NCBI GenBank assembly: GCA_945861665.1
Contig: CAMAVS010000005.1
Location: 1-64,000, forward strand
DNA length: 64,000 bases
Direction: 5' to 3'
Origin: Chitinophaga pinensis
GTDB taxonomy: Bacteria; Bacteroidota; Bacteroidia; UBA4408
In this document: one piece after another, positions 47,934 to 53,631 of the stretch
Layout of the letters: each line of letters starts with the position of its first letter
Position numbering within the stretch: the first letter of the stretch is position 1
Made by a program: the position numbers and the translations under genes
Notes under the pieces: generated by a model
What the model saw: only the letters and a program-made list of their open reading frames with translations
What the model was told of the DNA's origin: nothing
The model's database searches: none

Positions 47934-48299
47934 TTGAATTGGATAGCGCTACAAAACAGCGAACAATTATCACAATTAATTTCTGAATCAAAAATCCCCG
48001 ACAAGTTTGGTGTGTTAGTCTTTAAACACAGTACACGTTGTTCCATAAGCAATATGGCACTTTCACGTTTAGAAAGAAAATGGAATTTTACCACAGAAAA
48101 ATTATCGACCTATTATTTAGATTTACTTAATTATAGAGAACTCTCTTCTAAAATCGAAAATATTTTCAGGATTGAACACCAATCGCCTCAAATTTTACTG
48201 ATACAAAATGGAATTTGCACCTTTTCGCGAACCCACAGTGATATTGACGTATTGGAAATTGAAAATTTTATTGGAAGAACTACTGGTACTGAAAGCTAA
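47934..48299 (+). CDS. ytxJ: YtxJ bacillithiol-linked monothiol protein
   Basis: The 121-residue thioredoxin-like protein has the YtxJ signature, with the redox Cys36 in KHSTRCSISNMAL and the later cis-Pro region SPQILLIQNG. YtxJ proteins are thought to act with bacillithiol as monothiol (bacilliredoxin-like) reductants. The start is TTG at 47934: homologues begin MNWI-like, which matches here, and no ATG is available. It overlaps the convergent OsmC gene by 20 nt at the 3' ends. Confidence 0.88.
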   Translation: MNWIALQNSEQLSQLISESKIPDKFGVLVFKHSTRCSISNMALSRLERKWNFTTEKLSTYYLDLLNYRELSSKIENIFRIEHQSPQILLIQNGICTFSRTHSDIDVLEIENFIGRTTGTES

Positions 48300-50450: not shown

Positions 50451-50479
50451 TTGCAATCCTCTTTGAACACTTATCTTTG
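50451..50479 (+). promoter_or_regulatory. Promoter of the four-gene HMA operon
   Basis: TTG (50451-50453), an 18-bp spacer and TATCTTTG (50472-50479) match the consensus. The ATG at 50484 is only 4 bp past the -7 element, so the first mRNA may be leaderless. No metal-repressor dyad was recognised. Confidence 0.75.
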
Positions 50480-50483
50480 TACA

Positions 50484-51545
50484 ATGAATTTATTCAAGTA
50501 TCTTTTCTTTTTACTTTGTATACTGCATTTATCGTGTAAAAAGACGAATGTATCAACGGGAATAAGCATTGATTATCCTGCTGCTTATATTATTAATGGA
50601 GGCGACAATTCTATTTCTGTTTTAAATTTATCTACTAATACAATTGATGCCAGTATACAATTAAGCGATGCAACATTTCCACATCATATATATTTAAGTC
50701 CTGATAAAAAAACATTGGCAATAGGTGTACCCGGCAGCGATCTAAGTGGTGGACACAGCAGTGCAGGAGTGCATTCACACGGGACCTCACAATCAGGTAA
50801 AGGCCATAAAGAAATGGGTGAAATACTTGTGTTAAACGCTGTAACATTGCAAGAACGAGCCCGTACAAAAACCCCATCAATGTCTCACAATGCTGTTTAC
50901 ACAACAAATGGAAAACAAATATGGAGTGCAAAAATGGTGAAGCAGGGACAAATTATAATTTATAGTAATGATGAACTACGTGAATTAAAACACATCAACA
51001 CAGGCAATACACCTCTTGAAGTAACAATGTCGGCAGATGGAAGTACTGCCTTTGTAGCAAACAGTGGAAGTAATACAGTGGAAGCATTTGATGTTACAAG
51101 TTACAAATCAAAAGCAATTATATCGGTTGGGAAAACACCCGTAGGGGCTTGGGCGGCATCCAACAATAAAATGTATGTCGACAATGAAGCGGGGAAATCC
51201 ATTTCTGAAATTGATGTTGCTTCCTTAAAAGTTACAGCTACCATAGCGCTTAATTATACTCCGGCTATGGCTAAGTATAATAAAGTATACGATGAATTAT
51301 GGGTGAGCAATGCAACAAATGGCGCTATTCATTATTACAAAAAATTAAATAGCGTATGGACAGAAAATGGCAGTATAAATACGGGAGCCGATGCACACGC
51401 TCTCGCTTTTTCAGCGAATGAAAAAACTTGTTATATTACCAACCAAGGAGCTGCCACAGTATCCATCTTGGATGTGATAAATCACACTAAAATAAAAGAT
51501 GTTTCTGTTGGAAGTAAACCGAATGGAATTGTACTGAGAAATTAA
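50484..51545 (+). CDS. YncE-like beta-propeller lipoprotein with a His-rich segment
   Basis: The protein of 353 residues has a lipoprotein signal (LLCILHLSCKK, Cys18) followed by repeated blades of a YVTN/YncE-type propeller (SADGSTAFVANSGSNTVEAF, ISVGKTPVGAWAAS, TCYITNQGAATVSIL). Between blades, at about residues 87-108, lies a His/Ser/Gly-rich segment, GGHSSAGVHSHGTSQSGKGH, with five His residues, suited to binding Cu, Ni or Zn. The start ATG 50484 is fixed by the promoter. It is the first gene of an operon with two HMA-domain proteins and a predicted barrel, so a metal-binding exported role is inferred. Confidence 0.85.
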   Translation: MNLFKYLFFLLCILHLSCKKTNVSTGISIDYPAAYIINGGDNSISVLNLSTNTIDASIQLSDATFPHHIYLSPDKKTLAIGVPGSDLSGGHSSAGVHSHGTSQSGKGHKEMGEILVLNAVTLQERARTKTPSMSHNAVYTTNGKQIWSAKMVKQGQIIIYSNDELRELKHINTGNTPLEVTMSADGSTAFVANSGSNTVEAFDVTSYKSKAIISVGKTPVGAWAASNNKMYVDNEAGKSISEIDVASLKVTATIALNYTPAMAKYNKVYDELWVSNATNGAIHYYKKLNSVWTENGSINTGADAHALAFSANEKTCYITNQGAATVSILDVINHTKIKDVSVGSKPNGIVLRN

Positions 51546-51547
51546 AA

Positions 51548-52258
51548 ATGAAAAGTAGTTATACAATACAAGGAATGACTTGCTCAAATTGTGAAAGCAC
51601 AGTGAGGCAAAAACTAATGCAAGTAAGCGGAGTAAAAGAACTTGCTATTGACCTCACTAAAAATGAATTAGAAATAGAAAGTGCAAAAACGCTTTCGTTC
51701 TCTGAGTTGCAAAAAGGCTTAAAGGACTCAAAATACAGTCTTATAGAAAAAACAGCAAATACAATGGAAGAGACAGACGCTCCGAAGTCAAGCTACGCTC
51801 CTTTGTTTCTTGTGTTTTCCTTTATATTAGGCATCAGCTTCATTACATCCTATAAAAATGAAACCATCGATATGATGTTGTTTATGAATCATTTTATGGC
51901 GGGATTTTTTATTGTCTTTTCATTTTTTAAACTACTCAATCTTCGAGCCTTTGCCGATTCTTATGCTATGTATGACATCATTGCTAAAAAAATACCGGTG
52001 TACGGCTACATATATCCATTTATGGAATTATTACTTGGAATTGCTTTTTTAACTGCATTCAATCCTTTTTTAACCAATGTTGTAACATTAATAATAATGG
52101 GAATAAGCAGTATAGGTGTTATTGAAAGTGTAATCAACAAAAAGAAAATTCAATGTGCCTGCTTGGGTACAGTATTTAATTTGCCTATGAGCAACATTAC
52201 CATCGTAGAAGATTTATTGATGGTGGGTATGAGTTTAACAATGATAATAATCTTATGA
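51548..52258 (+). CDS. HMA domain fused to a MauE/DoxX-like membrane domain
   Basis: The 236-residue protein begins with a heavy-metal-associated domain (1-70) carrying the metal-binding MTCSNCES (Cys12, Cys15). It continues into about four transmembrane helices (from about 88) resembling MauE/DoxX proteins, with a CACLGTVFNLP segment near 203-213 that is the typical Cys-containing loop. No ATPase motifs are present, so it is not a P-type metal pump. It could pass metal or reducing power across the inner membrane. It begins 2 bp after the propeller gene, and its stop overlaps the next start (ATGA). Confidence 0.88.
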   Translation: MKSSYTIQGMTCSNCESTVRQKLMQVSGVKELAIDLTKNELEIESAKTLSFSELQKGLKDSKYSLIEKTANTMEETDAPKSSYAPLFLVFSFILGISFITSYKNETIDMMLFMNHFMAGFFIVFSFFKLLNLRAFADSYAMYDIIAKKIPVYGYIYPFMELLLGIAFLTAFNPFLTNVVTLIIMGISSIGVIESVINKKKIQCACLGTVFNLPMSNITIVEDLLMVGMSLTMIIIL

Positions 52259-52800
52259 AAATGAAAACACTTAAAAAAATTATTGCACTCTTCTTTATAC
52301 TAACTATAAATTCTGCGATAGCAAATGCTCAATTTGTATCGGTAGAAATAAAAGCAAGCGGATTAACCTGCTCGATGTGTTCTAACTCCATTGACAAAGC
52401 CCTTCGAACTCTTACTTTTGTAAAAGAGGTTACGGTTAATTTACAAACAACCTCCTTTACGGTTACTTTTAAAACCGATGCACCTGTTCAATTAGAGGAT
52501 ATGAAGAATAAGATAGAGGGGGCAGGTTTTTTTGTTGCAGGAATGACAGCAACTTATCATTTCAATAACCAAAAAATAACAAACGATTCGCACCTATCCA
52601 TTGAAAAGAATGATTATCACTTTGTGGATGTGAGCGAACAAATTTTGAACGGTGATGTTGCTTTCAAAGTAATGGACAAGGGCTATATGCTGACAAAAGA
52701 ATACAAAAAACATAAAAAGAAAAGTGCTATTCCTTGTATAAAAAACGGTACAAGTTGTAGTCCAACTGCAGGAACTAAAACCTATCACGTTACGCTGTAA
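52255..52800 (+). CDS. Secreted HMA-domain protein
   Basis: The 181-residue exported protein has a signal peptide (1-25, ending ANA) and an HMA domain (about 28-100) with Cys39 and Cys42 in GLTCSMCSNS. About 80 residues follow, with a basic His/Lys stretch (EYKKHKKKSAIPC) and two more cysteines (PCIKNGTSC). HMA domains normally bind Cu(I) or similar soft metals and are mainly cytosolic; an exported one suggests periplasmic metal capture or delivery. The start overlaps the previous stop by 4 nt (ATGA). The next gene follows 9 bp later. Confidence 0.87.
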   Translation: MKMKTLKKIIALFFILTINSAIANAQFVSVEIKASGLTCSMCSNSIDKALRTLTFVKEVTVNLQTTSFTVTFKTDAPVQLEDMKNKIEGAGFFVAGMTATYHFNNQKITNDSHLSIEKNDYHFVDVSEQILNGDVAFKVMDKGYMLTKEYKKHKKKSAIPCIKNGTSCSPTAGTKTYHVTL

Positions 52801-52809
52801 ATAACCCCT

Positions 52810-53631
52810 ATGAAATACCTTGCAAGTATATTACTTTCAGTGTTTTTTCACTTTTCGGGACTTGCACAAGAGTTGTTTCCAATGACGGAGCCTGCCAGTA
52901 ATATGGCAAGCGATGCACTCGGCTTGCGTTTAGGAATAAGCAATTATCAAAGTAATAATTACAATATAAAATCGCAAATAAAATCGGAAGTGATGTATGG
53001 AATAAATGCACGTTGGATGTTTCACATCAATGGGTATTTTTCGGATTTCTACAGTAAGGCATTTTTATTTCAAGGAGTGGGTTCATATTTCAAGTACCGA
53101 TTTCTTTCTATGGATAGTGAACACAGGCATACCCGAATGGCAGCATTTGGAAGAGTGACATACAACCCAACTAAAAATTATACCAGCGACCTGAACATTG
53201 AAGGGGCACAATCTGGACTTGCAGCGGGATTGGTTATAACACAGTTATTGCACAGACTTGCTTTATCAGTAACGCTTAATGAAACAAAAGCTTATTCATC
53301 GACAGGTATAATTCCTGAGAATTCATTCAATTACAACCTATCGGCAGGATACCTTATTTACCCCAGAAAATATACCAACTACAAACAAACAAATTGTAAT
53401 TTGTATGTTGAGGCAATGGGTAAAACAATTACAGCTAATCCTGAAAACAATTTTGCCGCAGGCTCTTCTTTGGACATTATACCATCCATTCAGTTTATAT
53501 TTAATTCACAAACCAGGCTCGACATAAGCTATAAAAGATCTGTTTATAATACCATTGTATACAATGCTCACCAATCCATCATGGTAAAAGTAGAACACAA
53601 TATTTTCAATGCTTTTCGTAATAGAAAGTAA
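52810..53631 (+). CDS. Predicted outer-membrane beta-barrel protein
   Basis: The 273-residue exported protein has a signal peptide (1-19, ending GLA) and repeated amphipathic strands (LGLRLGISNYQS, YGINARWMFHINGYFSD, NYNLSAGYLIYP, IPSIQFIFNSQTRLDISYKR). The pattern fits a barrel that resembles transporter-like or metal-associated proteins of Bacteroidota. As the last gene of the HMA operon it could be the outer-membrane exit or docking component; that is inference. It converges on lysC with only 4 bp between stop codons. Confidence 0.72.
   Translation: MKYLASILLSVFFHFSGLAQELFPMTEPASNMASDALGLRLGISNYQSNNYNIKSQIKSEVMYGINARWMFHINGYFSDFYSKAFLFQGVGSYFKYRFLSMDSEHRHTRMAAFGRVTYNPTKNYTSDLNIEGAQSGLAAGLVITQLLHRLALSVTLNETKAYSSTGIIPENSFNYNLSAGYLIYPRKYTNYKQTNCNLYVEAMGKTITANPENNFAAGSSLDIIPSIQFIFNSQTRLDISYKRSVYNTIVYNAHQSIMVKVEHNIFNAFRNRK

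Follow-up and report, generated by a model that had tools for sequence, protein, structure and literature searches.

The window analysed here is a 64,000-nucleotide stretch of DNA from Chitinophaga pinensis (contig CAMAVS010000005.1), and its positions 50,451–53,631 hold a four-gene operon whose possible role in copper handling is the subject of this report. All four open reading frames (ORFs) lie on the plus strand, and we refer to them as prop, hmaMauE, hmaP, and barrel. They encode, in this order, a β-propeller lipoprotein, a fusion of an HMA domain to a MauE/DoxX-like membrane domain, an exported HMA protein, and a probable outer-membrane barrel. A first-pass annotation of this DNA had described a four-gene cluster with gaps of 2, −4, and 9 bp, and we found all the ORFs present with that spacing. 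The prop ORF can be opened at TTG 50451 or at ATG 50484. We chose the ATG, because it yields a lipoprotein signal ending in the lipobox LHLSC, whose cysteine is invariant in 14 sequences. The TTG falls inside a promoter-like sequence of the Bacteroidota type, TTG-N18-TATCTTTG (50451–50479, plus strand; read from the sequence), which ends 4 nt before the ATG. The operon had been placed behind a single promoter. We regard this sequence as a plausible promoter only, because the window has no more copies of the TANNTTTG motif than shuffled sequence does. Sigma-70 promoters and terminators likewise showed no excess over shuffles, with no sigma-70 site above chance.

The hmaMauE gene (51548–52258, plus strand; 236 aa) encodes an N-terminal HMA domain (Pfam HMA, 2.5e-10) followed by a MauE/DoxX-like membrane domain with five predicted transmembrane (TM) helices (Pfam MauE, 2.2e-13). 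The membrane domain passes the gathering cut-off of PF07291, at 51.1 against 27 bits. The HMA domain, predicted to face the cytosol, carries a metal site C12-x-x-C15 of the copper-type form GMTCxxC (51581–51592, plus strand), which is kept in 39 of 40 homologues. The CAC loop pointed out in the first-pass annotation is present at C203-A-C205 (CACLG; 52154–52162, plus strand), follows a KKK in a predicted cytosolic loop, and is kept in all 40 homologues, as are K128, D143, E160, M225, and M228. An AlphaFold2 model (predicted local distance difference test, pLDDT, 77) has a ferredoxin-like HMA domain and five TM helices. Because the protein lacks a signal peptide and the KKK precedes the CAC motif, we predict an N-in topology that would place both the HMA domain and the CAC motif in the cytosol, and their location on the same side would fit the needs of metal hand-over. 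Close neighbors in the Protein Data Bank (PDB), by structure and by sequence, cover the HMA part only and comprise MerP, Cu ATPase domains, and CopZ, with MerP as the top Foldseek neighbor of the HMA domain. The MauE part has no sequence match among solved structures, and the Foldseek neighbors are mainly HMA domains.

The hmaP product (52255–52800, plus strand; 181 aa) is made with a signal peptide and contains a single HMA domain (Pfam HMA, 2e-12). Its metal site C39-x-x-C42 (GLTCSMC; 52369–52380, plus strand) is found in 20 of 20 homologues, which are encoded next to homologues of barrel. Two further cysteines had drawn attention at first. Both C161 and C168 are there, but they are shared by only four and none of the 20 homologues, respectively, and they were rejected as a functional signature for want of conservation.

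The prop gene (50484–51545, plus strand) encodes a YncE/YVTN β-propeller lipoprotein of 353 aa that matches Pfam YNCE at 1.4e-12 together with YVTN repeats, and it passes the Pfam cut-off of the YNCE-like propeller PF21783 (48 against 27.1 bits). In an alignment of 14 sequences, the window copy and 13 homologues, the lipobox cysteine C18 is invariant. Also invariant are H67-H68 in a PHH motif (50682–50687), H91 in DxSxGH (50754–50756), H135 in an HN motif (50886–50888), E179 (51018–51020), and H305 in an AHA motif (51396–51398), all on the plus strand, along with W147, W223, and W273. H68, E179, and H305 take the equal place of successive repeats in the alignment (PHH-I, PLE-V, and DAH-A), with H135 beside them. 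That place in the repeat should face the central channel of a propeller, and we therefore predict a likely metal site in the channel. The His-rich segment reported at first does exist (residues 86–108, with H91, H97, H99, and H108) and includes the invariant H91, but the insert that holds H97, H99, and H108 (residues 92–110; 50757–50813, plus strand) is present in the window copy only. Homologues have there a shorter Gly/Met-containing stretch, often TGGMxGMxG (e.g., TGGMPGMKGM). The insert, being unconserved, was rejected as a functional signature, and the segment appears to be this copy's own version of a loop that may bind metal, and no family trait. Conservation of the CxxC and His residues, on which the first-pass annotation had staked its proposal, therefore holds for both CxxC sites and for five propeller histidines, but not for the His-rich insert.

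We compared prop with two better-known propellers. AztD, a periplasmic zinc metallochaperone with His sites, is an earlier example of a propeller that delivers metal (PMC6689063). Its model matches seven of the 14 prop homologues, weakly, but prop has other conserved motifs and no AztABC transporter beside it, and membership was rejected at 21.2 bits against an NCBIfam cut-off of 400. The model of L-NosZ, the clade III lactonase-type nitrous-oxide reductase, matches all 14 propellers, up to 1e-21. That assignment was rejected as well, at 48.4 bits against a cut-off of 700 and with 353 aa set against a 480-position model. In the open-access literature, nothing relevant turned up on YncE in connection with HYC_CC_PP or as a Bacteroides lipoprotein.

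The last gene, barrel (52810–53631, plus strand), encodes an exported protein with a signal peptide, a QEL...PASN start, and probably 12 strands. One histidine, H107 (53128–53130), is invariant in 21 homologues. The protein matches no Pfam or NCBIfam family and has no sequence relative in the PDB, and a scan of 16 members of the homologue set gave a single weak OMP_b-brl match in one of them (0.0044). The AlphaFold2 model, built on a shallow alignment of eight sequences, has about 12 strands at a pLDDT of 54.5, and Foldseek matched it to outer-membrane barrels at low TM scores of 0.2–0.4. Signal peptide, strands, and structural neighbors agree with the outer-membrane barrel predicted at first, but the model is weak, and we consider this assignment likely only; a finer fold was rejected because the model is too weak to go beyond "outer-membrane barrel-like". 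No barrel homologue was matched on plasmids.

Among 395 sampled genomes of the phylum, the window genome counted, homologues of hmaMauE occur in 26, of prop in 7, and of barrel in 22. A further 23 named homologue loci, mostly from Bacteroidota, were taken in. We found that hmaP lies directly upstream of barrel or one gene away, on the same strand, at 20 of the 21 other barrel loci; in 18 loci the gap is below 60 bp or the genes overlap, and in two a TlpA-like gene stands between them. A TlpA-like gene is beside or between the pair in six loci. The window pair, adjacent with a gap of 9 bp, shows this conserved arrangement of the Bacteroidota copper-handling cassette. The order HYC_CC_PP–HMA–hmaP–barrel, without propeller or HMA–MauE, occurs in two genomes from the same family as the window (L139:5879-8135 and L140:5955-8192). 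In another Bacteroidota genome, L085, the genes run prop–TlpA–hmaP–barrel, in the same order as here and beside DUF3347 and CusA/TolC-type genes, and the HMA–MauE gene of this genome is at a separate locus, accompanied by genes for a multicopper oxidase and an AraC-type regulator. The Pedobacter loci have hmaP–barrel about 3 kb upstream of HMA–MauE.

The company that these genes keep is that of copper genes. Of the prop loci, 7 of 8 include copper-island families, as do 19 of the 21 for barrel and 26 of the 40 for HMA–MauE; for prop and barrel, the AraC-type regulator and TlpA were counted as well. Island representatives include a copper P-type ATPase (TIGR01511, 576 bits), HYC_CC_PP, DUF3347, a TlpA/ResA-like protein, and a multicopper oxidase that is of the copper-resistance type though below that model's own cut-off. 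Plasmid-borne propellers of Adhaeribacter, Fibrella, and Haliscomenobacter adjoin RND efflux genes of the CusA/CzcA type, and those of Adhaeribacter and Haliscomenobacter are also near a heavy-metal ATPase. The same prop, HMA–MauE, hmaP, and barrel families thus stand in or beside the Bacteroidota copper-resistance islands, which combine a copper P-type ATPase, CusABC-type RND genes, a multicopper oxidase, DUF3347, HYC_CC_PP, and an AraC-type regulator. The window operon differs from these islands in having no adjacent ATPase, RND, oxidase, DUF3347, or regulator gene, and its genome lacks P-type ATPases.

This absence extends well beyond the locus. The host genome (2.49 Mb in 13 contigs, 99.8% complete) has two HMA domains only, both in the operon, and no match to the E1–E2 P-type ATPase domain PF00122. 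The lack of a metal ATPase, first noted for the operon, is therefore a property of the whole genome, which sets it apart from P1B-type copper ATPase systems. Bacteria usually rely on P-type ATPases to move Cu(I) out of the cytosol. At least one P-type ATPase is present in 391 of the 395 sampled Bacteroidota genomes, and likewise in all 43 other sampled genomes that have one of the operon's genes. Judged by its sequence, the host is without the usual inner-membrane Cu(I) exporter. Genomes G048, G305, and G365 (66% complete) also have no P-type ATPase, nor does G006, a member of the window's family that lacks HMA–MauE and barrel too.

The host nevertheless encodes a heme-copper oxidase with COX1, on contig C2 and apart from the operon, a COX2 with the CuA ligand pattern CNKICGAAHYNM, and two SCO1 proteins. 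Contig C2 also holds a CzcA/CusA-type RND permease fused in frame to a TolC-like part (1462 aa; L125:5714-10102), followed by the gene of a CusB-like adaptor. The presence of the copper oxidase, SCO1, and the RND pump indicates that the host needs copper and probably exports metal from the periplasm. No copper efflux or oxidase gene adjoins the operon itself, which is flanked by lipA and aspartokinase; the pump is on contig C2, and in this respect the operon departs from the Bacteroidota cassette, which would have such a gene next to it.

Relatives of the MauE part are found outside Bacteroidota as well. On plasmids they bear a glutaredoxin-like domain in place of the HMA domain, and this glutaredoxin–MauE form is in or beside copper-resistance genes in Pseudoalteromonas, Roseobacter, Sphingobium, and Leptolyngbya; in Acaryochloris it adjoins heavy-metal-type efflux genes. 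The Shinella and Methylobacterium copies have no adjacent copper-resistance genes, and the Methylobacterium copy is near oxidase genes. The glutaredoxin–MauE proteins of Pseudomonadota and cyanobacteria share with hmaMauE the CAC(L/V)G motif, the K, D, E, P, and M positions (K128, D143, E160, and M225 among them), and the copper-gene neighbors, but their N-terminus has a glutaredoxin-like CPxG instead of the HMA CxxC, and the identity is about 25–34%. The MauE of methylamine dehydrogenase maturation (PF07291) shares the membrane domain, whereas hmaMauE has a fused HMA domain and a copper context, and no methylamine genes were seen nearby in the window.

Three observations on MauE genes and their surroundings stand by themselves. 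On a Bernardetia plasmid (L128:5540-6615), near a multicopper oxidase, the HMA and MauE parts are split between two adjacent genes, one for a double-HMA protein and one for MauE, whereas relatives have a single fused gene. An archaeal MauE protein, from an Undinarchaeales metagenome-assembled genome (L050:5821-6390), has a short Cys-containing N-terminus that is neither HMA nor glutaredoxin; a YHS/TRASH domain, guessed there by eye, was not recognized by Pfam and is not claimed. Finally, an AraC-type regulator with a CxxC-bearing, HMA-like N-terminal stretch (MILHIKNMVCNRC; L035:3664-4224 and relatives), in which Pfam sees the HTH only, is at most four genes from HMA–MauE in 28 of 42 loci and is possibly a copper-sensing regulator.

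The four proteins very probably take up copper and hand it on through the cell envelope. More specifically, we read the operon as a stripped-down Bacteroidota copper-handling cassette, and we put the chance that this reading is right at about even. HMA–MauE would be an inner-membrane protein whose HMA domain and CAC motif face the cytosol, where it would bind Cu(I), and its MauE membrane domain would exchange this Cu(I) with the periplasm. In the periplasm hmaP would shuttle Cu(I), partnered with the outer-membrane barrel, and prop would hold copper in its conserved His/Glu site, with the His-rich loop as an extra scavenger. With no P-type ATPase in the genome, the step of copper homeostasis between cytosol and periplasm would fall to the operon, and final export to the separate CzcA/CusA-type pump. 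Export or buffering appears more likely than import as the direction. We infer the metal, the topology, transport by MauE, the direction, and the role of the barrel. The envelope-spanning metal relay proposed in the first-pass annotation fares accordingly: a soft-metal, here copper, system placed in the inner membrane, the periplasm, and probably the outer membrane agrees with our results, but the relay as such is a prediction.

Several points weigh against the copper cassette. An HMA domain alone does not identify the metal as Cu(I) rather than Ag(I) or Hg(II), and two of the copper-island families, DUF3347 and HYC_CC_PP, are themselves linked to copper by association. The topology of hmaMauE was deduced from hydropathy and the positive-inside rule, and the known role of MauE is in thiol redox rather than metal transport. 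Conserved co-occurrence of the four genes, as first envisaged, holds for the hmaP–barrel pair and the L085 triple, but the complete set was seen in the window only, with pairs and that one triple elsewhere. HMA–MauE co-occurs with barrel in 7 genomes against 1.3 expected (p = 1e-4) and with prop in 2 against 0.4 (p = 0.05), but prop and barrel share 1 genome against 0.3 expected (p = 0.28, not significant), and these Fisher tests, which omit the window genome, ignore shared ancestry.

The known redox role of MauE leads to the strongest competing explanation, which we consider possible although improbable: HMA–MauE would be a thiol-redox relay whose CAC motif passes electrons across the membrane, directly or via a TlpA-like partner, and so keeps the hmaP CxxC reduced for Cu(I), with the HMA domain tuning or feeding the relay. 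MauE/DoxX is annotated as redox-associated, the glutaredoxin domain takes the HMA position in homologues elsewhere, and the TlpA-like genes at the six loci noted above would supply the partner, the one in L085 taking the slot of HMA–MauE. Yet the N-terminal domain of hmaMauE is a metal-binding HMA, this domain and the CAC loop are both predicted to be cytosolic, the conserved M225 and M228 in the last helix suit metal ligands, and the window operon has no TlpA gene.

The copper enzymes of the host raise the prospect of acquisition, in which barrel, prop, and hmaP would import copper and deliver it to CuA/CuB of cytochrome oxidase. The CuA-type COX2, COX1, and the two SCO1 proteins would call for such a supply, no P-type ATPase is there to feed periplasmic copper proteins, and AztD is a precedent for delivery by a propeller (PMC6689063). 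We think this unlikely, however, as the homologues stand among copper detoxification genes (efflux pumps, a copper ATPase, and a multicopper oxidase) and on plasmids, not among oxidase assembly genes, and the host's own oxidase genes are elsewhere, on contig C2. The cassette, redox-relay, and acquisition readings are partly compatible with one another.

A Mer-like mercury uptake or detoxification system, with HMA–MauE as MerT/MerTP and hmaP as MerP, would share with the operon the combination of a membrane part, HMA domains, and a periplasmic HMA shuttle, and NCBIfam MerTP and MerP do score weakly on the HMA parts, while MerP is the HMA domain's top Foldseek neighbor. All Mer models, however, match the HMA part only and are far below cut-off (MerTP at 35.5 of 180 bits and MerP at 29.7 of 92.55 bits), the host genome, with the operon's two HMA domains only, has no HMA-bearing mercuric reductase, and the neighbors elsewhere are copper genes. 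We rejected mercury as the best reading and consider it very unlikely. That unrelated genes merely came together by chance is scarcely credible: the full set is confined to the window and the prop–barrel co-occurrence is weak, but the tight spacing, the 4-bp overlap, the conserved hmaP–barrel pair (also in the two same-family genomes), the L085 triple, and the shared copper-island context largely refute it, so that the synteny which the first-pass annotation had named as decisive is conserved for the core, and on this comparison the four genes are not chance neighbors.

Returning to the copper cassette, its components belong to a known type of island but seem to be unnamed in the open-access literature, in which we found nothing relevant on MauE with copper and no paper naming or testing MauE in a copper role. 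At least three phyla have the MauE domain in copper clusters, with HMA as its fusion partner in Bacteroidota and glutaredoxin in Pseudomonadota and cyanobacteria. We tentatively suggest, as a doubtful but attractive extension, that HMA–MauE and glutaredoxin–MauE form an unrecognized class of Cu(I) membrane carrier, in which a cytosolic thiol domain would load MauE via the CAC motif and which would here replace CopA, together with hmaP, prop, and the new barrel. If MauE moves or reduces copper, many copper clusters would gain an explained component, and barrel would be a new copper-tied family of outer-membrane proteins. A near-complete genome with a copper oxidase, this operon, and no P-type ATPase is a natural test case for ATPase-free copper handling.

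The flanks of the operon, named from their translations, are housekeeping genes. Lipoyl synthase (lipA), encoded on the plus strand, precedes the operon, which is followed by minus-strand genes for aspartokinase and glutamine synthetase. Elsewhere in the window, at 47934–48299, a gene for a BrxC/YtxJ-type monothiol bacilliredoxin lies near an OsmC-like gene on the opposite strand, which hints at the use of bacillithiol.

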